Origin: Cryomorphaceae bacterium
GTDB taxonomy: Bacteria > Bacteroidota > Bacteroidia > Flavobacteriales > Schleiferiaceae
Direction: 5' to 3'
Length of the DNA stretch: 41,648 bases
NCBI GenBank assembly: GCA_024639785.1
Contig: JAHEGI010000004.1
Span: 1-41,648 of the forward strand
Made by a program: the position numbers and the translations under genes. The notes beneath the pieces are model-generated. The model was not told the DNA's origin and ran no database searches. It saw nothing but the letters and a program-made list of their open reading frames with translations. Shown in pieces: positions 286 to 33,517 of this stretch (position 1 is the first letter of the stretch; each line of letters opens with the position of its first letter).

Positions 286-2187
286 ATGTCTTACACCTAC
301 CAAGTTCAAACCGCTGCGGACTACGAAGCAGCCTATGCGCATGCCACCGAAAACCCTGAGGCTTTTTGGGCCGAAATCGCCGCCACCTTCCGGTGGAAAA
401 AGCCTTGGAAAACGGTTCTGAACTGGGAATTTCGCAGTCCATCCGTGCGCTGGTTTGACGGCGGCACGTTGAATATGACGGAAAACGCCCTCGACCGCCA
501 TGTGGAAGCGCATCCAGACCGCGTAGCGCTTCTCTGGGAGCCCAATGATCCGGGTGAGGCGACGGTTTCCTGGACCTATAAAGATCTTCTGGAGCGCGTG
601 GAGGCCTACTGCCATGTGCTTGTAGCGCGTGGCATCCAAAAAGGGGATCGCGTTTGCATCTACATGGGGATGATTCCTGAACTGGCGGTGGCGGTCCTGG
701 CTTGCGCGCGCATTGGGGCGGTGCATTCGGTCATCTTTGGGGGCTTTTCTGCGGAGAGCATCGCCGATCGCGTGCTCGATGCGCAAGCTTCTGCGATCAT
801 CACGTGCGACGGGGCTTTCCGGGGCGCTAAAACGATACCCCTCAAGAGCGTCGTCGACCAGGCCCTTTCATCCTGTCCAGAGGTGCATACCGTTGTGGTT
901 CACCAGCGCACGCGCGAGCAGGTGGACATGATGGAAGGCCGGGATGTGTGGTACCATGAGGCCCTGCCTGTCGACCTCAAGCCCTTTCCTGCGGTGGAAA
1001 TGGAGGCAGAGGACCTCTTGTTCATTCTGTACACCAGTGGCAGCACGGGCAAACCCAAGGGGGTGGTACATACCTGTGGTGGCTACATGGTGTGGGCAAC
1101 CTACACCTTTGTCAACGTCTTCCAGTACCAGCCTGGCCAAATTCATTTCTGTACCGCCGACATTGGTTGGATTACGGGTCACAGCTACATCGTCTATGGC
1201 CCCTTATGCGCTGGGGCGACCACTTTGTTGTTTGAAGGCATACCCACGTACCCTGATTGTGGGCGATTCTGGCAAATCACCGAAAAGCACCACGTGGACA
1301 TTCTTTACACGGCGCCCACGGCCATTCGTAGTTTGATGGCAGCCGGCCCCGAATTTCCTGACGCCTACCCCATGTCCAGCCTAAAAGTACTGGGCACGGT
1401 AGGGGAGCCCATCAACGCAGAAGCCTGGCACTGGTACGACCAACATGTGGGCAAAGGCCGTATCCCGATTGTGGATACGTGGTGGCAGACAGAAACAGGC
1501 GGCATCATGATTTCCAATTTGGCGGGGGTCACGGAGGCCAAACCGACTTACGCCACACGCCCTCTGCCCGGGATTCAGCCGCTCCTTGTCGACGAACATG
1601 GCGCGGAAATCCATGGCAATGGGGTTTCGGGCAATTTGTGCATGCGCTACCCCTGGCCGGGCATGATCCGAACGACCTACGGCGATCACGACCGATGCCG
1701 CCAAGCCTATTTTTCCACGTATCCCGGCTTGTATTTTACAGGGGATGGCTGCATTCGGGATGAAGAAGGCTTGTATCGCATCACCGGCCGCGTGGACGAT
1801 GTCTTGAATGTGAGCGGCCACCGGATTGGCACGGCCGAGGTGGAGAATGCCATTAACATGCATCCACAGGTCGTGGAATCCGCCATTGTAGGCTATCCGC
1901 ATGACATCAAAGGCCAGGGCATCTATGCCTATGTCATCCTGCATAGCCCTGAAAAAGAAGACCTAAGAGTCGAAATTCTCGCAGAAGTGGTGAAGCACAT
2001 TGGGGCCATTGCCAAACCCGACAAGATTCAGTTTGTCCCTGGCTTGCCGAAGACGCGTTCGGGCAAGATCATGCGCCGTATCCTCCGAAAAATAGCGGAA
2101 GGGGAGCTTCAGCAACTCGGAGATACCACGACGCTATTGGATCCAGCGGTAGTCCAGGCGATCATTTCGGGCCGCGCTAGCGAATAG
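286..2187 (+). CDS. acs: Acetyl-CoA synthetase
   Basis: Cytoplasmic AMP-forming enzyme making acetyl-CoA from acetate, ATP and CoA through acetyl-AMP. The 633-residue length is slightly below the usual ~650. The adenylate-forming core motif YTSGSTGKPKG is at 249-259. The hinge/A8 region TGD...GRVDDVLNVSGHR is near the start of the C-terminal domain, and PKTRSGK ends at Lys594, equivalent to the Lys acetylated to switch off Acs in other bacteria. Start ATG 286 fits the family N-terminus. It stands alone, converging on the GNAT/nitrilase gene with only 6 nt between the stops. Confidence 0.96.
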   Translation: MSYTYQVQTAADYEAAYAHATENPEAFWAEIAATFRWKKPWKTVLNWEFRSPSVRWFDGGTLNMTENALDRHVEAHPDRVALLWEPNDPGEATVSWTYKDLLERVEAYCHVLVARGIQKGDRVCIYMGMIPELAVAVLACARIGAVHSVIFGGFSAESIADRVLDAQASAIITCDGAFRGAKTIPLKSVVDQALSSCPEVHTVVVHQRTREQVDMMEGRDVWYHEALPVDLKPFPAVEMEAEDLLFILYTSGSTGKPKGVVHTCGGYMVWATYTFVNVFQYQPGQIHFCTADIGWITGHSYIVYGPLCAGATTLLFEGIPTYPDCGRFWQITEKHHVDILYTAPTAIRSLMAAGPEFPDAYPMSSLKVLGTVGEPINAEAWHWYDQHVGKGRIPIVDTWWQTETGGIMISNLAGVTEAKPTYATRPLPGIQPLLVDEHGAEIHGNGVSGNLCMRYPWPGMIRTTYGDHDRCRQAYFSTYPGLYFTGDGCIRDEEGLYRITGRVDDVLNVSGHRIGTAEVENAINMHPQVVESAIVGYPHDIKGQGIYAYVILHSPEKEDLRVEILAEVVKHIGAIAKPDKIQFVPGLPKTRSGKIMRRILRKIAEGELQQLGDTTTLLDPAVVQAIISGRASE

Positions 2188-2193
2188 AGGAGC

Positions 2194-3720
2194 CTACTTG
2201 CGCTCGAGGGAGAAGAGGTCTAACCGGCGGTCTTTGAGATTTCGGACGCTTCCTCGGGTGTGGAGCTCCCTTAAGAGATCCAAGTCCACATCAGCGATAA
2301 GAATCATCTCGGTATTGGGCGTAGCTTCTGCTTTAATTCCGTTAGAAGGAAAGGCGAAGTCGCAGGGCGTAAAGACCATGGATTGAGCATATTGAATGTC
2401 CATGTTTTCTACGTTGGGAAGGTTGCCAACACTCCCGGCGATCGCCACATAGCATTCATTTTCAATCGCTCGGGCTTGGGCGCAATGACGTACGCGGGAA
2501 TACCCGTTTTGGGTATCGGTTAAGAAGGGAACGAATAGAAGATCCATGCCTTGGTCTGCCAGTAAACGACTGAGTTCAGGGAATTCTGAATCGTAGCATA
2601 TCAACACGCCAATTTTGCCGCAATCTGTATCAAACACCTCCAATTTATTTCCTCCTTGCATGCCCCAAACTTTCGCTTCGTCCGGGGTGACATGGAGTTT
2701 TTCATAGCGTTCAAAGCTTCCGTCACGCCGGCATAAATAGCCTACATTATACAGCGTGCCATCGCGTAATTCCGGCATGCTACCCGAGATAATGTTGATG
2801 TTATAGGAGATGGCCAACTCTTGAAATTTTGCCAAAATAGCCTCCGTGTGTGCCGCCAAAGAGCGGATGGCCTCCGCTTCAGATTTGTGGTTGTCTTTGG
2901 CCATCAAGGGGGCATTGAAAAACTCTGGAAAAAGGGCAAAATCTGATCGATACCCGGATACGGCATCGACAAAAAATTCTACCTGACGCAAGAGATCGTC
3001 CAGGTCCAGGTATGAGCGCATTTGCCATTGAACGAGCCCTAGGCGAACGATGCGTTTCGTGGTGGTCGCGGATTCATTCGGTTCTTCATAATAGATGTTG
3101 CTCCACCGCAAGAGCACCGCCATGCCCAAAGAATCTTCATCCTGATGGAGGTAGTTTTTCAAGGCGCGGACAGGCTGAAAATCATTCGAAATTTGGAAGC
3201 TCAACACCGGATCATGGAGTTCCTTTCGCTTGACGGCTTCAATGTATTCCTTGGGCGTCATACGCGCTGAATGACTGTGGTAGCGCGGAATGCGACCCCC
3301 AAATACAATGCCTTTGAGATTTAATTTCTCACACAACTCTTTGCGGTAGTCATAGAGCCTGCGCCCGAGGCGCAAGCCGCGAAACTCAGGTTTGATGAAT
3401 ACATCAATTCCGTATAGCATATCGCCCGTTTCCGTATGCGTCGAAAAGGTGAAGGCTCCCGTGATTTGTTCGTAGGTGTGCGCTTTGTTGGTAACACTCT
3501 CCATCACTCGAATGCTCAGAGCGCATCCCGCGAGTTGTCCATTGATTTTTAGCACCACTTGGCCCTCGGGGAAACGTTCAATCAGTGTGGCGATATGGCT
3601 CTCTTTCCAATAGGCCTCTGGCATACTCGGATAGGCCGAGATCATGGCAGTTTTTAACGCTTGATAATCGATGAGTTGGAGGTATTCCAGCTCAATGCTC
3701 TGGATGTCTTGAATATCCAT
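2194..3720 (-). CDS. GNAT acetyltransferase / carbon-nitrogen hydrolase fusion
   Basis: 508 residues with two enzymes in one chain. Residues 1 to ~210 form a GNAT domain: the FIKPEFRGLRLGRRLYDYR stretch at 108-126 contains the acetyl-CoA pyrophosphate loop R-G-L-R-L-G-R. Residues ~224-495 form a nitrilase-superfamily amidase with the full triad Glu266 (LFPEFF), Lys341 (YEKLH) and Cys375 (LICYDSEFPE). This fusion is known across Bacteroidota but its substrate is not settled. It is the second gene of an operon, 9 nt after the MBL hydrolase stop. No signal peptide, so probably cytoplasmic. Confidence 0.88.
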   Translation of the reverse strand: MDIQDIQSIELEYLQLIDYQALKTAMISAYPSMPEAYWKESHIATLIERFPEGQVVLKINGQLAGCALSIRVMESVTNKAHTYEQITGAFTFSTHTETGDMLYGIDVFIKPEFRGLRLGRRLYDYRKELCEKLNLKGIVFGGRIPRYHSHSARMTPKEYIEAVKRKELHDPVLSFQISNDFQPVRALKNYLHQDEDSLGMAVLLRWSNIYYEEPNESATTTKRIVRLGLVQWQMRSYLDLDDLLRQVEFFVDAVSGYRSDFALFPEFFNAPLMAKDNHKSEAEAIRSLAAHTEAILAKFQELAISYNINIISGSMPELRDGTLYNVGYLCRRDGSFERYEKLHVTPDEAKVWGMQGGNKLEVFDTDCGKIGVLICYDSEFPELSRLLADQGMDLLFVPFLTDTQNGYSRVRHCAQARAIENECYVAIAGSVGNLPNVENMDIQYAQSMVFTPCDFAFPSNGIKAEATPNTEMILIADVDLDLLRELHTRGSVRNLKDRRLDLFSLERK

Positions 3721-25108: not shown

Positions 25109-26689
25109 CTAGAATTCCGATTTGGCATGAAAGCTCAACTTGTCAAACTTCTCTTGAGACATCTGCAAGCTGAATGCCGAATCGGCCAAAAATACCAGGC
25201 GACCATATTTGTCCTCGGCTAAATAGCGCGCTTTGAATTTTTTAAATTCTTCCAGTTGATCCATATCTGTTGATTGAACCCAGAGGGCTTTGTAGGCTTG
25301 GAAGGGCTCGTAGGCACATTTAGCACCATATTCATGCTCCAAACGGTATTGAATGACCTCATATTGAAGGGCGCCTACCGTGCCGATAATTTTCCGTCCA
25401 TTGCTAATCAACGTGAAAAGCTGGGCCACCCCTTCGTCCATTAATTGGTCTACTCCTTTAGCTAATTGCTTGGATTTAAGTGGGTCGGCATTGTTGATGA
25501 AACGAAAATGTTCCGGAGAAAAAGAAGGGATTCCTGTGAAATGCAGGGCTTCGCCACCGGTCAGGCTGTCGCCAATGCGGAAATTCCCTGTATCAGGCAA
25601 ACCGACGATGTCACCGGGAACGGCATAATCCACCACTTCTTTCTTACTCGCCAAAAAGGTGAGGGGAGAGCTGAATTTGAGGTTCTTGCCTTCGCGGACG
25701 TGCAAATAGTTGGTATTTCGCTCAAATAATCCCGAGACAATTTTGACAAATGCAATGCGGCTGCGGTGATTGGGGTCGATGTTCGCGTGGATTTTAAAGA
25801 CAAATCCAGAAAATTGCTTTTCCGAAGGGATGACCTCACGCTCTTCAGCCTTTTTGGGCTGGGGACTTGGGGCGATTTCCACAAAGCAGTCGAGGAGTTC
25901 TTTGACGCCGAAATTGTTCAATGCAGACCCGAAAAACACGGGGCAAATTTCCCCTTTGAGGTATGCCTCCCGGTCAAATTCGGGATATACGCCTTGGATT
26001 AGTTCAATTTCTTCCCGTAGTGTGGATGCCGCCTCTTCCCCAATTCGTTGATCCAATTCTGGATCATTCAAATCTTTGAATGCCATGGAGCGACCAATCT
26101 TTTGCTTGGATTGCTCTTCATACAGTAGGAGCGATTGATCCCAAATGTTGTACACCCCTTGGAATCGGGCGCCCATGCCCACGGGCCAAGAGAGCGGGCA
26201 GAGGCGAAGGCCTAATTTGCCTTCAATTTCGTCTAGTAAGTCAAATCCATCGCGTCCTTCGCGGTCCAATTTGTTGATAAACACCATAATAGGTGTGGCG
26301 CGCATCCGGCAAACCTGAACCAATTTTTCGGTCTGTGTTTCCACGCCTTTGGCTACATCCACCACGACGATCGCGGAATCAACCGCGGTCAATGTGCGGA
26401 AGGTGTCCTCCGCGAAGTCTTGGTGGCCTGGGGTGTCCAGAATGTTGATATGGCGATTTTTGTACTCGAAGGCCATTACAGAGGTAGCCACAGAGATGCC
26501 CCGCTGCTTTTCGATTTCCATGAAATCCGAAGTAGCCGTCTTTTTGATTTTATTGTTTTTGACGGCCCCAGCTTCTTGAATGGCCCCGCCAAATAGCAAA
26601 AGCTTTTCGGTGAGCGTGGTCTTGCCTGCATCTGGATGCGAAACAATGCCAAAGGTGCGTCGGCGGGCTATTTCTTCTAAAATTTTCAC
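25109..26689 (-). CDS. prfC: Peptide chain release factor 3
   Basis: GTPase that recycles RF1/RF2 from the ribosome. 526 residues from GTG 26689, matching the usual ~527. Motifs: P-loop S-H-P-D-A-G-K-T-T, switch II D-T-P-G-H-Q-D, and N-K-L-D. The frame stays open to 26743, but the extra 18 residues are unlike RF3 and would contain the -7 element TACATTTG (26708-26715). Divergent from the CarH-like regulator. Confidence 0.95.
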   Translation of the reverse strand: MKILEEIARRRTFGIVSHPDAGKTTLTEKLLLFGGAIQEAGAVKNNKIKKTATSDFMEIEKQRGISVATSVMAFEYKNRHINILDTPGHQDFAEDTFRTLTAVDSAIVVVDVAKGVETQTEKLVQVCRMRATPIMVFINKLDREGRDGFDLLDEIEGKLGLRLCPLSWPVGMGARFQGVYNIWDQSLLLYEEQSKQKIGRSMAFKDLNDPELDQRIGEEAASTLREEIELIQGVYPEFDREAYLKGEICPVFFGSALNNFGVKELLDCFVEIAPSPQPKKAEEREVIPSEKQFSGFVFKIHANIDPNHRSRIAFVKIVSGLFERNTNYLHVREGKNLKFSSPLTFLASKKEVVDYAVPGDIVGLPDTGNFRIGDSLTGGEALHFTGIPSFSPEHFRFINNADPLKSKQLAKGVDQLMDEGVAQLFTLISNGRKIIGTVGALQYEVIQYRLEHEYGAKCAYEPFQAYKALWVQSTDMDQLEEFKKFKARYLAEDKYGRLVFLADSAFSLQMSQEKFDKLSFHAKSEF

Positions 26690-26707
26690 AGTGCGTATTT
26701 TCGTCTG

Positions 26708-26715
26708 CAAATGTA
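26708..26715 (-). promoter_or_regulatory. -7 element TACATTTG for prfC
   Basis: Perfect TAnnTTTG on the minus strand, 18 nt before GTG 26689, with a TTG about 18 nt further upstream as a possible -33 element. Confidence 0.5.
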
Positions 26716-26723
26716 GGGTTTGC

Positions 26724-26737
26724 ATTGGTGAACCAAT
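26724..26737. promoter_or_regulatory. 14-bp palindrome ATTGGT-GA-ACCAAT between prfC and the regulator
   Basis: Perfect 6-bp inverted repeat with a 2-nt centre, located in the 73-bp divergent gap over the probable prfC -33 region. It could be an operator; no factor can be named. Confidence 0.35.
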
Positions 26738-26762
26738 TGTCAAAACCTGTGTTATTGGAGTG

Positions 26763-27668
26763 ATGGGATCTACCTACAGTATCAAAGACTTAGAACACCT
26801 CACCGGAATCAAAGCGCATACGCTACGAATCTGGGAGCAGCGGTATGGCATAGTTATGCCTGAGCGTACCGAGACCAACATCCGATATTACACGGACGAG
26901 GATCTAAAGACCTTATTGAACGTAGCGGTTCTTATTCAGAAAGGCTGGAGAATCAGTAAGGTGGCGGATTTGAGCCGAGCGGAGTTGAATAAACAGGTGC
27001 TGGATTTGGCCCTGAATGATGGTCATTATCCCTCTCAGATTGCGCGCCTGCTTCAAGCTACGATAGATCTCGATGAGCCCACGTTCACGGCTATTTTGGA
27101 TGCATGCATTCACGAAATGGGGGAGAATGAAACCTTCACCAAAATTGTGGGTGGTTTTATTCATCAAGTGGGCGTTTTATGGCAAACCGATGCCATTGGC
27201 GTGGCCCATGAACATTTTGCAAGCAACCTGATAAAGCAAAAGCTGTACACCGCTCTGGACAAATTGCCCGCCCAAGTGGCCTCGGTAGAAAATCCTGGAT
27301 ACCTTGTTTTCCTGGCAGACCAAGAGATGCATGAGTTAGGCCTGTTGTATGTGCATTACATTCTCAAGGCCCAAGGGCAATCTGTCGTGTACCTAGGTCA
27401 AAGTGTGCCTTTGGAGTATTTGGCGCCCTTGTTGAAGGAACGAGGTCGATGGAAAGCGGTGGTGTCTATTTGGACCACAAATCCAGACAATGATAGCCGT
27501 CACAACTATTGGCTTCAATTAGAAGAGATGTTGGGCGGAACACCATTTTGGGTGTCCGGAATTGGGAGCCATGAATGGGATGGAAAGGGACTTGAGCATA
27601 CGGCCAAGGTTTACCCGGACCTTAGAAGTCTTTGCGAGGCACTCCATTCACTGGAAGTAACCGCCTGA
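26763..27668 (+). CDS. CarH/LitR-like B12-dependent MerR photoregulator
   Basis: 301 residues. MerR winged helix at 5-70 (Y-S-I-K-D-L...H-T-L-R-I-W-E-Q-R-Y, then R-Y-Y-T-D-E-D-L). A helical bundle carries the CarH hallmark W-x9-E-H at Trp140...Glu150-His151. The B12 Rossmann domain has E188-x-H190-x-x-G, where His190 would be the lower cobalt ligand. In Thermus and Myxococcus such proteins repress carotenoid genes in the dark as adenosylcobalamin tetramers and release DNA in light. The residue after Trp140 is Gln rather than the His132 of T. thermophilus CarH. It sits immediately upstream of the carotenoid/photolyase cluster. ATG 26763 is the family-like start. Confidence 0.88.
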   Translation: MGSTYSIKDLEHLTGIKAHTLRIWEQRYGIVMPERTETNIRYYTDEDLKTLLNVAVLIQKGWRISKVADLSRAELNKQVLDLALNDGHYPSQIARLLQATIDLDEPTFTAILDACIHEMGENETFTKIVGGFIHQVGVLWQTDAIGVAHEHFASNLIKQKLYTALDKLPAQVASVENPGYLVFLADQEMHELGLLYVHYILKAQGQSVVYLGQSVPLEYLAPLLKERGRWKAVVSIWTTNPDNDSRHNYWLQLEEMLGGTPFWVSGIGSHEWDGKGLEHTAKVYPDLRSLCEALHSLEVTA

Positions 27669-27686
27669 AATACAAACTCTTAAGTT

Positions 27687-27722
27687 TTTTGTTAAATAAA
27701 TTGTGAAAAAAGTTTAACAAAA
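27687..27722. promoter_or_regulatory. Inverted repeat TTTTGTTAAA-N16-TTTAACAAAA, candidate operator
   Basis: Perfect 10-bp arms at 27687-27696 and 27713-27722, ending 2 nt before the -33 TTTG of the sigma-factor promoter. Shares the GTTTAA core with the pair at 27744-27773. Confidence 0.6.
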
Positions 27723-27724
27723 CC

Positions 27725-27755
27725 TTTGGCTCTAGACAATTCCTGTTTAACTTTG
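27725..27755 (+). promoter_or_regulatory. Promoter TTTG-N19-TAACTTTG of the light-response operon
   Basis: -33 TTTG at 27725-27728, 19-nt spacer, perfect -7 TAACTTTG at 27748-27755, and 20 nt to ATG 27776. The best full Bacteroidota promoter in the window. Confidence 0.75.
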
Positions 27756-27773
27756 ATAAGTAATCGTTAAACA
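27744..27773. promoter_or_regulatory. Inverted repeat TGTTTAAC-N14-GTTAAACA over the -7 and start site
   Basis: Perfect 8-bp arms at 27744-27751 and 27766-27773. The left arm overlaps the -7 element and the right arm abuts the sigma-factor start codon, an ideal repressor position. Confidence 0.62.
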
Positions 27774-27775
27774 AG

Positions 27776-28288
27776 ATGGCCATGACCGCTTCAGATGCAT
27801 TTGGATACGAGATTTATCAGCACACTGCATTCCTTCGAACCCTCGCGTTAAAATTGACGCATCACTCGGAAGATGCCGAAGATTTGATTCAAGAAACGTT
27901 CTACAAAGCGATTAAGAACCAAAGTCGCTATCAGGAAGGTACCAATCTCAAAGGATGGCTTTACACCATTCTGAAAAACACCTTCATTAATAATTACCGG
28001 AAGAAGCGCAATCAGAATACCTATAGCGACGACACCGAAAACCAATTCATTCTGGGCTCCATGGCCTCTGATCGTGCAACCGAGGCAGATAGTCCGGCTG
28101 AGCTCTCTACGATATTAGAGAACATAGAATCGGTCGAAAAATCTTATTTGGATGCCTTCATGATGTATTTCAATGGCTACAAATACGAAGAGATTGCCCA
28201 AGAAATGGACATTCCATTAGGCACGGTGAAAAGCCGTATCTTCCTAGCAAGGAAGAAGATGATGGAGAAACTTAAAGACTTTAGGTAA
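27776..28288 (+). CDS. ECF-type RNA polymerase sigma factor
   Basis: 170 residues. Region 2 (H-S-E-D-A-E-D-L-I-Q-E-T-F-Y-K, then G-W-L-Y-T-I-L-K-N) and region 4 (Y-K-Y-E-E-I-A-Q-E-M-D-I-P-L-G-T-V-K-S-R-I-F-L-A-R) are both present, typical of ECF factors, and no anti-sigma gene is adjacent. ATG 27782 is an alternative start. First gene of the carotenoid/pterin/photolyase operon, so light-induced production would spread the response to other promoters (inference). Confidence 0.9.
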   Translation: MAMTASDAFGYEIYQHTAFLRTLALKLTHHSEDAEDLIQETFYKAIKNQSRYQEGTNLKGWLYTILKNTFINNYRKKRNQNTYSDDTENQFILGSMASDRATEADSPAELSTILENIESVEKSYLDAFMMYFNGYKYEEIAQEMDIPLGTVKSRIFLARKKMMEKLKDFR

Positions 28289-28321
28289 GTCTCTCACACT
28301 TAATCCCTCTACCTCTTTCAC

Positions 28322-29791
28322 ATGCACGCAGTTGTCATCGGCGCTGGTTTTTCCGGCTTAAGTACCGCCTCCTATCTAGCCCAAAAAGGGTATGAAGTGA
28401 CTGTGCTAGAAAAACATGAAGGTCCGGGTGGTCGCGGCCGCCAGTGGAAGTCTGAAGGCTTCACCTTCGACATGGGCCCATCTTGGTATTGGATGCCCGA
28501 TGTGTTTGAGACCTTTTTCTCCCATTTTGGTAAAAAGCCCAGTGATTACTATACCCTAGAGCGCTTAGATCCTTCCTACAGCATCTTCTACGAGGATGGT
28601 CCGATGACCATACCTGCTTCGATGGAGGAGATGGAGGCTTTATTTGAGCGCGTGGAACCCGGCTCTGCATTGCGATTGCGTGCGTTCTTAAAAGATGCGG
28701 CCTACAAATACGAGGTGGGCATTAATGATTTGGTGCGCAAACCATCCCGTTCTGTATTTGAATTTGCGGATTCTCGTGTGCTCAAGGGGCTACTTCAGCT
28801 TGACTTGCTAAGCAACATTCGTTCTTCGATTAAAAAGGTGGTCAAGAATCCCCAGTTACAGCAGTTGTTGGAGTTCCCAGTTTTGTTCTTAGGAGCGACG
28901 CCCAGTAACACCCCAGCGCTGTATTCCTTGATGAACTACGCAGACATGGCCTTAGGTACTTGGTATCCGCAAGGGGGCATGTATGCGGTGGTTGAAGGAT
29001 TTTACACCTTAGCGAAGGAACAGGGAGTTCGCTTTGAGTTTTCTTCAGAGGTTAGCGGCTTCGACTATGCCCAAGGCGCCATTTCCCATGTGATTTGTGG
29101 CGAGCAGCGAATCCCCTGTGATCTGGTCGTTGCCAGTGCAGACTATGCGCACGTGGACCAACATTTGCTAGCTCCTACGTACCGCAAATACAGCCCTTCG
29201 TATTGGGCAAAGCGCAAAATGGCACCTTCATCCTTTTTGTACTACATCGGCTTGGATGCCCCAATTCCAGGGATTGAGCACCATAGCTTGTTTTTCGATG
29301 CCCCATTTGACGTTCACGCGGATGCCATCTATACGGACCCACGTTGGCCTGAAAAGCCGCTCTTCTACTTATCTGCAGCCTCCAAAACGGACCCAAATGC
29401 GGCACCCAAGGGAGGGGAAGCCTTAGTGATTCTTATTCCTACGGCCCCAGGCTTGGAGGACACGGATGAGGTACTTGAGCGCTACTACCAATTGGTTGCT
29501 GAGCGCATTAAGGATCACGTGGGATTTGATATTAGGGAGCATGAGGTAATTAAACGCACCTATGCCTACCGAGATTTTGTAAAGGACTACCATGCCCATC
29601 AAGGCAATGCTTATGGGTTGGCGAACACACTAGACCAAACGGCTATTTTTAAACCGAGTTTAAAGGGCAAATTGTCTAACCTTTATTATGCTGGACAGCT
29701 GACTGTCCCCGGGCCTGGGGTTCCGCCATGCATCATAAGTGGTGAGGTTGTGGCCTTGGAAATTCAAAAAGAGCACCCTTTGAAATCATGA
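28322..29791 (+). CDS. crtI: Phytoene desaturase CrtI
   Basis: Membrane-associated FAD enzyme introducing the conjugated double bonds of phytoene toward lycopene. 489 residues: N-terminal V-I-G-A-G-F-S-G-L-S-T-A dinucleotide motif with G-G-R-G-R, and C-terminal L-Y-Y-A-G-Q-L-T-V-P-G-P-G-V-P-P signature. Starts 33 nt after the sigma gene and overlaps crtB by ATGA. Confidence 0.93.
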   Translation: MHAVVIGAGFSGLSTASYLAQKGYEVTVLEKHEGPGGRGRQWKSEGFTFDMGPSWYWMPDVFETFFSHFGKKPSDYYTLERLDPSYSIFYEDGPMTIPASMEEMEALFERVEPGSALRLRAFLKDAAYKYEVGINDLVRKPSRSVFEFADSRVLKGLLQLDLLSNIRSSIKKVVKNPQLQQLLEFPVLFLGATPSNTPALYSLMNYADMALGTWYPQGGMYAVVEGFYTLAKEQGVRFEFSSEVSGFDYAQGAISHVICGEQRIPCDLVVASADYAHVDQHLLAPTYRKYSPSYWAKRKMAPSSFLYYIGLDAPIPGIEHHSLFFDAPFDVHADAIYTDPRWPEKPLFYLSAASKTDPNAAPKGGEALVILIPTAPGLEDTDEVLERYYQLVAERIKDHVGFDIREHEVIKRTYAYRDFVKDYHAHQGNAYGLANTLDQTAIFKPSLKGKLSNLYYAGQLTVPGPGVPPCIISGEVVALEIQKEHPLKS

Positions 29792-30624
29792 TGGAATTAT
29801 ATCACCAAAGTTCTGTTCGGATCAATAAATTGATCACTCGTGCCTACAGCACCTCCTTCTCTTTGGGCATCTTGGGCTTGAATCGAGCGCTAAGAAATCC
29901 GATTTATTCGATTTATGGATTTGTCCGTGTGGCCGATGAAATCGTAGATAGTTTTCATGGGCACGACAAAGCGGTTTTGTTAAAGCGGTTTTGGAAAGAA
30001 ACCCATTTAGCGCTAGAGGAAGGCGTCAGCACGAACCCGGTATTGCACAGCTTTCAGATGGTCGTGCATGAATTTAAAATAGACCAGTCCCTCATCGACA
30101 CCTTCTTGGCCTCGATGGAGATGGATTTAGAAGATCGCGAATACAATCAAGCAGAGTACGAGAAGTACATTCTTGGTAGCGCCGAAGTGGTCGGCTTGAT
30201 GTGCCTCAAAATATTTGTCCGAGGTGACCAGCGCCAGTACGAAGCCTTAACTCCGTATGCGATGAAGTTGGGTTCGGCGTTCCAAAAAATCAATTTTTTG
30301 CGCGATGTGAGTGCTGATTTTAACACCTTGGGACGAACCTACTTCCCGAATGTGGATCTAAGTTCCTTTGATGACGACGCGAAGCGAGCCATTGAAGAGG
30401 ATATTGCGATGGATTTCAGAATGGGCTATGAAGGGATCCTTCGACTGCCCAAAGGAGCTCGTTTTGGGGTGTATATCGCCTACATGTATTATTACGCCCT
30501 GTTCCAAAAGATTATGCGTACGCCTTCTGCCCATATTTTCCAGTCGCGCATTCGCATTAACAACCCTAAAAAGTACCGCCTTTTTGTGAGCAGCTACTTG
30601 CGTCACGCACTCAATCTATTGTGA
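29788..30624 (+). CDS. crtB: Phytoene/squalene synthase CrtB
   Basis: Condenses two GGPP to phytoene. 278 residues. First Mg-binding motif in V-A-D-E-I-V-D, and the second prenyl-diphosphate motif in F-L-R-D-V-S-A-D plus L-G-R-T-Y-F-P. ATG 29788 overlaps the crtI stop; a second ATG follows directly at 29791. Pairing with crtI supports phytoene over squalene as product. Confidence 0.93.
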   Translation: MMELYHQSSVRINKLITRAYSTSFSLGILGLNRALRNPIYSIYGFVRVADEIVDSFHGHDKAVLLKRFWKETHLALEEGVSTNPVLHSFQMVVHEFKIDQSLIDTFLASMEMDLEDREYNQAEYEKYILGSAEVVGLMCLKIFVRGDQRQYEALTPYAMKLGSAFQKINFLRDVSADFNTLGRTYFPNVDLSSFDDDAKRAIEEDIAMDFRMGYEGILRLPKGARFGVYIAYMYYYALFQKIMRTPSAHIFQSRIRINNPKKYRLFVSSYLRHALNLL

Positions 30625-30625
30625 A

Positions 30626-31156
30626 ATGACTGAATATGTTATCCTCGTTTCGGAAGCGGATGAAGCTCTGGGACGGATGGAGAAAATGGAAGCCCACCAA
30701 AAAGGGGCCTTGCACCGTGCCTTCTCTGTCTTCTTATTTAATGAACACGGTGAAACGCTTTTGCAGCAGAGGGCCGCAGAGAAATACCATAGTCCCTTGC
30801 TCTGGACGAATACGTGTTGCAGTCACCCGAGAGAGGGGGAGACCGTGTTGGAGGCCGCGCAACGCCGAGTTTCAGAAGAGTTGGGGATTCAGCCCGCGGC
30901 GATTCGAGATCTTGACGTGGCATTTCACTTTACCTACCGAGCGGAATTTGACAATGGCTTAATCGAACATGAGCTTGATCACGTCCTTATAGGCCATTTT
31001 GAGGGGGACTGCGTCCTTAATCCGGAAGAAGTTGCCTCGGTGCGATGGGTGGCTATGGAGGATCTAATGGCCGATGTCAAAGCCGCTCCAGAGAATTATA
31101 CCGCGTGGTTCAAGATCATCTTGGATGAGTACGTGAAACACCTTCCCAGTCTATGA
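30626..31156 (+). CDS. idi: Isopentenyl-diphosphate isomerase, type I
   Basis: Interconverts IPP and DMAPP, raising precursor supply for carotenoids. 176 residues with a Nudix-like fold: catalytic Cys in T-N-T-C-C-S-H-P, and E-x-E near H-E-L-D-H. One nt separates it from crtB, and its stop overlaps the next ATG (ATGA). Confidence 0.93.
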   Translation: MTEYVILVSEADEALGRMEKMEAHQKGALHRAFSVFLFNEHGETLLQQRAAEKYHSPLLWTNTCCSHPREGETVLEAAQRRVSEELGIQPAAIRDLDVAFHFTYRAEFDNGLIEHELDHVLIGHFEGDCVLNPEEVASVRWVAMEDLMADVKAAPENYTAWFKIILDEYVKHLPSL

Positions 31157-31560
31157 ATGCTACAGTAAGTCGCCACGCCCATTTTAATGCGGCCCACCGC
31201 TTGCATGTCCCCTCATGGAGTGAGGCCGAGAACCAACGCTTTTTTGGTGCATGCAATAACCCCCATTTTCATGGTCACAATTATGAGCTCATCGTTTCCT
31301 TGACGGGCCCCATAGATCCAGTTTCGGGATATGTGTATGATATGAAGGTCTTGGCGGATTTAATCAAAGCAGAGGTCACGTCCAAATTGGACCACAAAAA
31401 CCTGAGTATTGAAGTGCCAGAGTTTACCACCTTGAATCCAACGGCAGAGAACATTTCTGTATGCATCCATCGCTGGCTTCGACCACACATCTCAGCCGAT
31501 ATTAAAATTAAAGTAACACTTTACGAAACACCTCGCAACTATGTCGAATTCAACGATTAA
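31153..31560 (+). CDS. 6-Pyruvoyl-tetrahydropterin synthase (PTPS-II motif)
   Basis: 135 residues of the QueD/PTPS family. The motif F-G-A-C-N-N-P-H-F-H-G-H-N-Y has the catalytic Cys five residues before HGH (C-x5-HGH), as in animal PTPS of tetrahydrobiopterin synthesis, whereas queuosine QueD has C-x3-HGH. Zinc His ligands, L-D-H-K-N-L and E-T-P-R-N are also as in PTPS. It uses dihydroneopterin triphosphate, the product of FolE encoded next (20-nt overlap). Function as PTPS rather than QueD is inferred from the motif. Confidence 0.85.
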   Translation: MNATVSRHAHFNAAHRLHVPSWSEAENQRFFGACNNPHFHGHNYELIVSLTGPIDPVSGYVYDMKVLADLIKAEVTSKLDHKNLSIEVPEFTTLNPTAENISVCIHRWLRPHISADIKIKVTLYETPRNYVEFND

Positions 31561-32206
31561 ATTAAACGGAAGATCGAATGGTGTAACCATTTCTCTGCCC
31601 ATGTTAAACACGCCAATGCATGCGAATTCCATGGCCTTATCTGATTCAGAAAAGGTCGTTTTAATCGCTGAAAAATTTGCGGAGATCATGGAGATCATGG
31701 GCTTGGATCTTCAAGACGATTCTTTGGCCGGAACCCCGGAGCGGGTGGCAAAGATGTACGTTCACGAGACCTTCCAAGGGCTAAATCCGCTGAATAAGCC
31801 AGACATCACCTTGTTTGATAATGCCTATGCCTATGGGGAAATGCTCGTGGAGCGGAACATCACGCTGCACAGCACCTGTGAGCACCACTTTGTACCCATT
31901 CTCGGTGTCTGTCATGTAGCCTATTTTGCCACAGGCAAGGTGGTTGGATTATCGAAGCTAAATCGAATTGTGAAGTTCTACGCGAAACGCCCACAAGTTC
32001 AGGAGCGTCTCACTGAACAAATCGCCGCCGAACTAAAGCGCGCCTTGCAGACGGAAGACGTCGCCGTCTACATCGATGCGGAGCACCTCTGCGTCAAAAC
32101 CCGAGGGGTAGAAGACTGTGCTTCATCCACAGTGACTAGTCACTACAGTGGAAAATTCAAGGATCAGCACACGCGTGCCGAATTCTTGAATGCGATTAAA
32201 GCATAA
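31541..32206 (+). CDS. folE: GTP cyclohydrolase I FolE
   Basis: Makes 7,8-dihydroneopterin triphosphate from GTP. 221 residues with zinc ligands in S-T-C-E-H-H and A-E-H-L-C-V, and the G-L-S-K-L-N-R-I-V and G-V-E-D-C-A-S-S-T segments. The ~30-residue N-terminal extension is unconserved, so a later ATG is possible. It begins inside the PTPS gene and is followed 3 nt later by the photolyase. A dedicated copy here suggests a pterin product linked to light rather than only folate supply. Confidence 0.93.
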   Translation: MSNSTIKLNGRSNGVTISLPMLNTPMHANSMALSDSEKVVLIAEKFAEIMEIMGLDLQDDSLAGTPERVAKMYVHETFQGLNPLNKPDITLFDNAYAYGEMLVERNITLHSTCEHHFVPILGVCHVAYFATGKVVGLSKLNRIVKFYAKRPQVQERLTEQIAAELKRALQTEDVAVYIDAEHLCVKTRGVEDCASSTVTSHYSGKFKDQHTRAEFLNAIKA

Positions 32207-32209
32207 TTC

Positions 32210-33517
32210 ATGGTGCTGCATTGGTTCCGCAGGGACCTTCGTCTGGAAGATAACGCCGCATTAGCAAAGGCCCACGCGAGTGGCCATCCTGTTCAGCCGG
32301 TGTTCATCTTTGATCGGGCAATTCTAGACCGACTTGAGGATACAGAAGATGCGCGCGTATCCTTTATTTACCGCGAGCTGACTCGGTTGAAGCAGGAAAT
32401 TGCGGCACAAGGCGGTCATCTTTGGGTCGTGTATGGAGATCCTCTAGATTGGCACCGCCAATGGGCATCCGATGCCTCGATCAAGGGTCTGTATGCAAAC
32501 CGTGATTATGAACCCTATGCCGGGCAGCGTGACACAGCAGTACATGCCGTCTACCAGGCCGAAGGAAAAGAGGCAAAGTGGTTGAAAGACCACGTGATGA
32601 AGGAGCCCAAGGAGGTCTTAAAAGACGACGGCAATCCATACACGGTGTTCACGCCCTATGCCCGAAAGTGGCGCAGTCAATTTGTTCCCGAACAAATTGA
32701 AGCCTATCCAACACCTACTGGAAATTGGAATACGCAGGTCAGCCCCTACGAGTGGCCGACGTTAGATTCCATGGGTTTCACACAAAACGAGCGTCAAATT
32801 CCTGCGCGAACTATTCTGACGAACACGCTGGCTCAGTATGAGGCCAAACGAAACTTTCCTGCATTGCCAACAGGTACTACGCGACTGGGCGTACACTTGC
32901 GCTTTGGCACGTTGTCTATCCGTGCTCTAGCCCGTTCCGCCTATCCCGAACATGGGAAGTTTTTGACGGAACTCATTTGGCGCGATTTCTACCAGATGAT
33001 TCTGTATTTCTATCCGGAGAGCCCTCAAAAAGCCATTAAGCCCGCTTATGATCGCATCGAGTGGGAGCGAAGTGAGGAACACTTTGTTGCATGGTGCAAG
33101 GGCAAGACAGGCTATCCTTTGGTGGATGCAGGCATGCGAGAGTTGAATGCGACCGGGTTTATGCACAACCGTGTGCGCATGGTTGTCGCAAGTTTTCTGA
33201 CGAAGCACTTATTGCTCGATTGGCGCCTCGGGGAAGCATATTTTGCCGCCAAACTCATGGATTTTGACCTTGCGTCAAATGTGGGTGGCTGGCAGTGGGC
33301 GAGTGGCTCAGGTTGTGATGCTGCCCCTTATTTTCGAATTTTCAACCCCGAAAGTCAATTAGAAAAGTTTGACAAGCAGTTAACCTATGTCAAACGGTGG
33401 GTTCCTGAATACGGAACGCCTTATTACGCGAAACCAATCGTTGAGCACAAAATGGCACGTGAGCGTGCCCTCGCTCGCTACAAAGAGGGCTTGGCTTCTT
33501 CTAGCGCAGGACTATAG
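32210..33517 (+). CDS. Photolyase/cryptochrome (class I type)
   Basis: 435-residue FAD photoenzyme. N-terminal antenna domain begins H-W-F-R-R-D-L-R-L-E-D-N. FAD domain has E-L-I-W-R-D-F-Y, G-Y-P-L-V-D-A-G-M-R-E-L, M-H-N-R-V-R-M, and N-V-G-G-W-Q-W-A-S-G-S-G-C-D-A-A-P-Y-F as in CPD photolyases, with the electron-transfer Trp residues apparently kept. Probably repairs UV-made cyclobutane dimers; a signalling role cannot be excluded. Last gene of the light operon; its final 40 nt overlap the convergent gene. Confidence 0.92.
   Translation: MVLHWFRRDLRLEDNAALAKAHASGHPVQPVFIFDRAILDRLEDTEDARVSFIYRELTRLKQEIAAQGGHLWVVYGDPLDWHRQWASDASIKGLYANRDYEPYAGQRDTAVHAVYQAEGKEAKWLKDHVMKEPKEVLKDDGNPYTVFTPYARKWRSQFVPEQIEAYPTPTGNWNTQVSPYEWPTLDSMGFTQNERQIPARTILTNTLAQYEAKRNFPALPTGTTRLGVHLRFGTLSIRALARSAYPEHGKFLTELIWRDFYQMILYFYPESPQKAIKPAYDRIEWERSEEHFVAWCKGKTGYPLVDAGMRELNATGFMHNRVRMVVASFLTKHLLLDWRLGEAYFAAKLMDFDLASNVGGWQWASGSGCDAAPYFRIFNPESQLEKFDKQLTYVKRWVPEYGTPYYAKPIVEHKMARERALARYKEGLASSSAGL

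Follow-up and report, generated by a model that had tools for sequence, protein, structure and literature searches.

Inverted repeats at a carotenoid and photolyase operon promoter as probable operators of a CarH-type photoreceptor in Bacteroidota

The promoter of a carotenoid and photolyase operon in a Cryomorphaceae bacterium is flanked and overlapped by two inverted repeats, and the gene just upstream encodes a CarH/LitR-type regulator. This raises the question of which protein reads these repeats, and in which arrangement. The window, i.e. the whole analysed stretch of 41,648 nucleotides of contig JAHEGI010000004.1, was compared with related genomes. The best explanation, held with high confidence, is that the repeats are two CarH-box operators (TGTTTA-N18-TAAACA) of the B12-dependent photoreceptor-repressor encoded upstream, which would keep the promoter closed in the dark and open it in the light.

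The regulator gene carH (26763..27668, on the forward strand like the promoter, the repeats and the operon) encodes MerR wHTH and B12-binding domains. Its frame is open upstream to 26580, and relatives favour the start at 26763. An RF3-like (prfC) gene and carH are arranged head-to-head (25109-27668), which was also seen by eye in the same-genus loci L003, L004, L006, L008, L012 and L017. The first operon gene encodes an ECF sigma factor (27782..28288); an in-frame ATG is also present at 27776, and the alignment of relatives favours the start at 27782. It is followed by a phytoene desaturase-like gene that is probably crtI (28322..29791, PF01593), the phytoene synthase gene crtB (29788..30624, PF00494), a gene for a NUDIX protein, probably an IPP isomerase (30626..31156, PF00293), a gene for a 6-pyruvoyl tetrahydropterin synthase (PTPS) family protein (31153..31560, PF01242), the GTP cyclohydrolase I gene folE (31541..32206, PF01227) and a DNA photolyase gene (32210..33517, PF03441 and PF00875). 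These genes overlap or are separated by short gaps, and the stretch from the sigma to the photolyase gene is presumably one transcript. The preliminary description had placed the repeats at the promoter of a carotenoid/photolyase operon; the operon was borne out, but the description had missed that its first gene is an ECF sigma factor ahead of crtI. The adjoining PTPS-family, folE and photolyase genes (31153-33517) suggest a pterin supply that serves the photolyase or another light-related function.

Housekeeping promoters of Bacteroidota follow the consensus TTTG-N(about 19)-TAnnTTTG. The window promoter, which was assigned by this consensus, conforms to it as TTTG-N19-TAACTTTG, with the -33 element TTTG at 27725..27728, 19 nt ahead of the -7 element at 27748..27755. 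A narrow scan of the relatives recovered a TTG or TTTG at the matching -33 place in only 39 of 69. In the -7 element of relatives the TTT is conserved, and the G is kept in most. An E. coli-type sigma-70 promoter was not found in a scan of 27500-28400.

The repeats and promoter elements described earlier were all confirmed at their positions. Box 1, the upstream inverted repeat TTGTTAAA-N16-TTTAACAA (27689..27720), has 2 mismatches to the consensus and arms of 10 nt with 100 % complementarity (27687-27696/27713-27722). It lies upstream of the -33 element, with a gap of 4 bp to the TTTG. Box 2, CTGTTTAA-N16-TTAAACAA (27743..27774), has 1 mismatch, and its arms at 27744-27751 (TGTTTAAC) and 27766-27773 (GTTAAACA) lie within an 11-nt pair of 91 %. 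Its left arm includes the start of the -7 element and its right arm lies in the leader, so that box 2 covers TAACTTTG (27748-27755) and overlaps the target promoter. The family consensus common to both boxes is TTGTTTAA-N16-TTAAACAA with a length of 32 bp. Its natural unit is the 8-nt half-site TTGTTTAA at a start-to-start distance of 24 (27689/27713 and 27743/27767), which replaces the half-site steps of 22, 33 and 20 bp given in the preliminary description. With at most 3 mismatches, the consensus has three matches in the window, two of which are these boxes; 100 shuffles gave 0.19 on average and always fewer than 3. In the whole genome, the same spacing with at most 2 mismatches occurs at four places, two of them here, 54 bp apart, while the site at C12:143286 (2 mismatches) is probably due to chance. 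An RNA hairpin formed by the repeats was ruled out by position, since a transcript from this promoter would contain no arm but the right one of box 2.

The conservation of the boxes was assessed in the DNA upstream of the sigma gene in 72 genomes, comprising 70 of the same family, including the window's own, and 2 further ones of its order. Of these 72 genomes, 69 carry an inverted pair whose left arm holds a -7-like element; the distance is 24 in 55 and 25 in 14. The expectation that the half-sites recur in relatives with the same operon thus held. In all 69, box 2 (at most 4 mismatches) lies no more than 35 bp from the start codon; the first-pass anchors of L010, L054, L055 and L072 sat on box 1, and a recheck placed a box 2 closer to the start codon in each. 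At 67 of 69 loci, the two arms of the anchored box match TGTnnA/TnnACA, and hence the core TnnACA. Box 1 was found at 60 of 69 loci with at most 3 mismatches, and with a cruder anchor at 56 of 69, compared to 6.5 % of Markov shuffles. Between the arms, the sequence is largely unconstrained except for the -7 element, although the underlying column counts are slightly blurred by some anchors that were misassigned in that scan.

Such conservation could also arise if only the promoter and leader (TAnnTTTG and an A-rich start region) were conserved, or if the sigma gene had an autoregulatory ECF sigma promoter, as box 2 overlaps the -7 element and adjoins the start codon. However, box 1 agrees with box 2 in arms and spacing, and none of its 60 copies carries a TTTG at the -7 place. 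Its arms are therefore conserved independently of the promoter. Furthermore, a bare promoter would give no dyad fixed at 24 bp, and boxes also precede other genes, including some without a sigma gene. These off-promoter copies largely refute a purely promoter-based origin, which retains hardly any probability.

The distance between the two boxes varies at the 60 loci with both, being 46 in 18, all of one genus, and 52-56 in 42. For this reason the location of all four half-sites on one face of the helix, as initially suggested, is no conserved feature; the geometry is fixed inside the box and not between boxes. At many loci of genus g33 (L080-L097), an extra small dyad, TGTTCAAACA or TGTTTGAACA, was seen by eye between the boxes near -33. 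Together with boxes that are 46 bp apart instead of about 54, this dyad is possibly a third contact.

The linkage between box and carH is close but imperfect, and this speaks against the CarH-box explanation. Box 2 is missing in three of the 72 genomes (G044, G063 and G065). No CarH was detected in G044 at an E-value of 1e-10, while G063 and G065 have only distant CarH proteins with 37-39 % identity, encoded on other contigs. G063 nevertheless keeps a different box with 1 mismatch, which lies about 64 bp ahead of the sigma gene and off the -7 element. A perfect co-occurrence of box and CarH was therefore dropped, as G063 has a box without a linked CarH and only G044 and G065 have none. In four genomes of genus g3 (L053, L055, L057 and L058), carH lies beyond the fetched locus on the same contig, about 2-8 kb away, and in one of them, G051, it is a fragment.

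The box of G063 would suit a different regulator, an unlinked MerR or CRP-like protein that shares the light and carotenoid regulon and binds the repeats while the neighbouring CarH acts elsewhere. A candidate exists in a second, short MerR-type HTH protein, which is encoded here and in several relatives (25-32 % identity along some 60 residues). Against such a regulator stands the placement of boxes before carH itself in several genera (G024, G041, G049, G062, G064 and G075, and G063 with 2 mismatches). Boxes also precede a crtI-like gene that follows carH with no sigma gene between them (G062, G063, L025 and L027), and a distant CarH beside a crtI-like gene, likewise without a sigma gene, still has boxes.

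A further argument against a third protein comes from a class-wide comparison of half-sites and recognition helices. Of 395 genomes drawn from the class, 253 had a CarH relative at an E-value of 1e-25. The type-A set comprised 29 automatic and 60 hand-chosen regions, the latter aimed at different genera, from the best-scoring matches listed, as well as 8 order-level or family loci, 12 named contigs and 1 further locus. The type-B set comprised 28 loci of a divergent type after removal of 4 duplicates; L281, a fragment without the helix, was left out. The sampled loci are biased towards closer relatives. The recognition helix reads GIKAHT[IL]R-I-WE[QK]R at the 110 type-A loci and G[IL][NT]K[IFL][VL]LR-T-WENR at the 28 type-B loci.

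Half-site pairs were counted from 500 bp upstream to 800 bp downstream of carH with 1 mismatch allowed per arm. At type-A loci, TTGTTTAA...TTAAACAA at 24 bp gave 80 pairs in 51 of 110 loci, compared to 9 pairs at 25 bp and at most 7 at each of the remaining distances between 12 and 45. At type-B loci, TTGTATAA-N16-TTATACAA at 24 bp gave 34 pairs in 25 of 28 loci and at most 5 elsewhere. As the two cores are one base apart, cross-pickup occurred, with 29 type-A pairs for TTGTATAA and 10 type-B pairs for TTGTTTAA, and the types were separated by a template blind to the two middle bases of the half-site. With this template, sites were recovered at 59 of 110 type-A and 19 of 28 type-B loci, and the base at position 5 of the half-site was T 183, A 4, G 5 and C 8 times in type A and A 51, G 1 and T 0 times in type B. 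The remaining 51 type-A and 9 type-B loci had no strict site in the DNA scanned next to carH. Fisher's test gives a p-value of 1e-47 for the base-5 difference, which ignores shared ancestry and overstates independence; the switch between A and B was probably a single evolutionary event. H19 was rejected as the sole specificity residue because it is Gly in two type-A proteins, of which L327 keeps TTGTTTAA sites and L312 has near-matches.

Operator and recognition helix thus differ together, which at the level of sequence comparison is strong evidence for binding by CarH and is not predicted by a third-party regulator. An unlinked regulator is therefore regarded as quite improbable, and the recurring box is very probably the landing site of the repressor. 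The earlier proposal of a multi-half-site operator for the neighbouring CarH/LitR regulator is likewise supported by this covariation and by the conservation of the boxes. The two natural half-site alphabets with their different recognition helices would allow a direct test of the DNA code and its use in orthogonal light switches.

The regulator itself is a member of the CarH/LitR group by sequence and fold tests. Its MerR winged helix and B12-binding helical domain score above the Pfam cutoffs (PF13411, PF00376 and PF02607), and the one soft spot is the Rossmann B12-binding domain PF02310, which falls under its cutoff with 20.5 vs 32.1 bits. The Wx9EH motif is kept (W140, E150 and H151), as is the lower-ligand histidine motif E/DxHxxG in the form ExHxxG (E188/H190/E191). 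With loose patterns, both sensor motifs are present in 96 of 110 type-A and 24 of 28 type-B proteins. The best solved-structure relatives by sequence, 3whp and 5c8d, are Thermus CarH with the same aligned sequence. In a search with the predicted fold, the top 12 matches were all full-length Thermus CarH entries with a whole-chain TM of 0.43-0.51, a range that can arise when domains shift in such models.

The relation of the boxes to known operators depends on the orientation of the half-sites. Published CarH operators consist of tandem 11-bp direct repeats, nAnnTnnACAn with the core TnnACA, which is unusual for a MerR protein (PMC9304148, PMC8156234). Known CarH proteins occupy the operator in the dark as an AdoCbl-bound tetramer or, in Cystobacter, as two dimers, and in Thermus one head-to-tail dimer contacts repeats 1 and 3 (PMC9304148, PMC8156234). 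The CarH systems of Thermus thermophilus, Bacillus megaterium and myxobacteria share with the present one a MerR and B12 regulator of carotenoid genes, a promoter-overlapping operator and TnnACA. Unlike in these systems, the half-sites here are inverted at 24 bp and form separate boxes 46-56 bp apart, and 11-bp direct repeats, of which the known operators have three or more in tandem, show no enrichment. The view that the site differs in sequence from known operators was therefore revised in part: TnnACA is the published CarH core, whereas the inverted 24-bp arrangement is not that of the published CarH operators. With its CarH core and outside the tandem-repeat definition, the operator is a new variant within a known photoreceptor family.

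Since the half-sites keep the TnnACA core and CarH operators are described as plastic (PMC9304148), a single CarH tetramer might contact the half-sites as in Thermus, with hidden direct repeats as the deciding feature and the inverted repeats as incidental. A faint TGTnnA copy was indeed seen by eye 12 bp inside box 1 of the window. However, 11-bp direct repeats are not enriched beside carH, with 2 pairs in type A, 2 in type B and 1 in the family set, while the inverted distance is nearly fixed. A Thermus-like contact is therefore considered unlikely, and the initially noted likeness to an 11-bp spacing was given up.

The closest two-site layout on one promoter is that of the class II LitR proteins of Pseudomonas (PplR1/PmlR2), with the site T(G/A)TACA-N12-TGTA(C/T)A, one copy of which lies over the -35 element and one between the start site and the start codon (PMC9758184). 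The light-inducible set there includes photolyase and folE genes, and PmlR2 works through a LOV protein (PMC9758184). The half-sites here are TGTTTA and not TGTACA and are 24 bp (N18) instead of 18 (N12) apart, so that a site of the Pseudomonas form is absent, and the sensor motifs of CarH are kept here while PmlR2 is LOV-dependent. For the CarA operator of Myxococcus xanthus, two inverted repeats were proposed, of which one lies upstream of the -35 element and the other overlaps it (PMC9304148). As described there, these are degenerate in relatives and direct repeats explain the binding, whereas the inverted geometry is conserved in the present case. Among the matches listed, no Bacteroidota CarH/LitR operator was found in the literature, a weak result with subscription journals mostly outside the coverage, and the motif as a text query returned nothing related by title. 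One listed paper on a MerR-like protein of Bacteroidetes reportedly concerns the iron regulator MliR.

In Streptomyces, the LitR-LitS system places a B12-type regulator beside the gene of an ECF sigma factor, by which carotenoid and photolyase genes are switched on in the light. It belongs to another phylum, and here the sigma, crt and photolyase genes appear as one operon.

For the CarH-box operators, a mechanism can be proposed in which AdoCbl-loaded CarH would sit on each box in the dark as a two-fold symmetric head-to-tail dimer. The distance of 24 bp is near the 22 bp between repeats 1 and 3 of Thermus, from which we infer that one head-to-tail dimer per box might bind with its DNA-binding domains in two-fold symmetry. 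The two dimers may be joined as a tetramer. Occupancy of box 2, which spans the -7 element, the transcription start region and the leader, would block RNA polymerase directly, and box 1 would add cooperativity. Light would break the cofactor and release CarH, and the ECF sigma factor, carotenoid enzymes, pterin enzymes and photolyase would be made. For Bacteroidota CarH in general, an undescribed mode is favoured with moderate confidence, in which one head-to-tail dimer reads a symmetric 30-bp TGTTTA-N18-TAAACA, a second lineage has switched to TGTATA, and the light regulon covers carotenoids, photolyase, pterin enzymes and, in part of the lineages, the rhodopsin pump. An inverted operator that recurs class-wide would demonstrate symmetric reading of DNA by the same photoreceptor architecture.

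For Bacteroidota genomes with carH, the box also offers a means to predict which genes belong to the light regulon. With at most 1 mismatch, 88 family genomes gave a forward count of 128 vs 16 for the reversed control, and the 28 type-B genomes gave 99 vs 8. Among the matches listed, 34 regions of the window's family and 20 of type-B genomes were inspected. The type-B boxes precede PTPS-family genes (L372, L385), photolyase-family genes (L381, L384), a fatty-acid desaturase gene (L387) and one rhodopsin gene (L386). These scattered boxes thus mark several of the functions that are collected in the one operon of the window. Other type-B neighbours look unrelated, such as a Bax-inhibitor-like protein (L383), and in 2 of 20 type-B regions (L375, L380) no ORF of at least 70 AA starts within 350 bp. 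Some boxes are surely due to chance.

In the window's own genome, the best other box (1 mismatch, L139:2739-2770, corresponding to G000:C5:35738-35769) ends about 64 bp before a Bac_rhodopsin gene, and G003 has a perfect box at the corresponding place before its rhodopsin gene. For the family, 32 rhodopsin loci from 57 rhodopsin-bearing genomes were examined, 4 of which were dropped because the upstream DNA was missing or masked. A box with at most 2 mismatches lies upstream of 6 of the 28 usable loci, with the count for L141 taken from a separate reading of its region. Rhodopsin regulation as a general rule is unsupported by this patchy distribution, and the association within the family is a lead. 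It suggests that a B12 photoreceptor may gate rhodopsin phototrophy in some carH-bearing Bacteroidota.

In the window's family, boxes also precede two CIA30 proteins (L142, L152). A few bp before the genes of a fasciclin-domain protein (L148) and of DUF4397 secreted proteins (L151, L157), further boxes were observed, and in L160 a box lies between two lipoprotein genes, the one before it encoding a fasciclin protein. The fasciclin and DUF4397 proteins are possibly light-regulated surface proteins. In L369, a PAS-UbiA prenyltransferase fusion is encoded at 2165-3442, 12 bp after a perfect type-B box.
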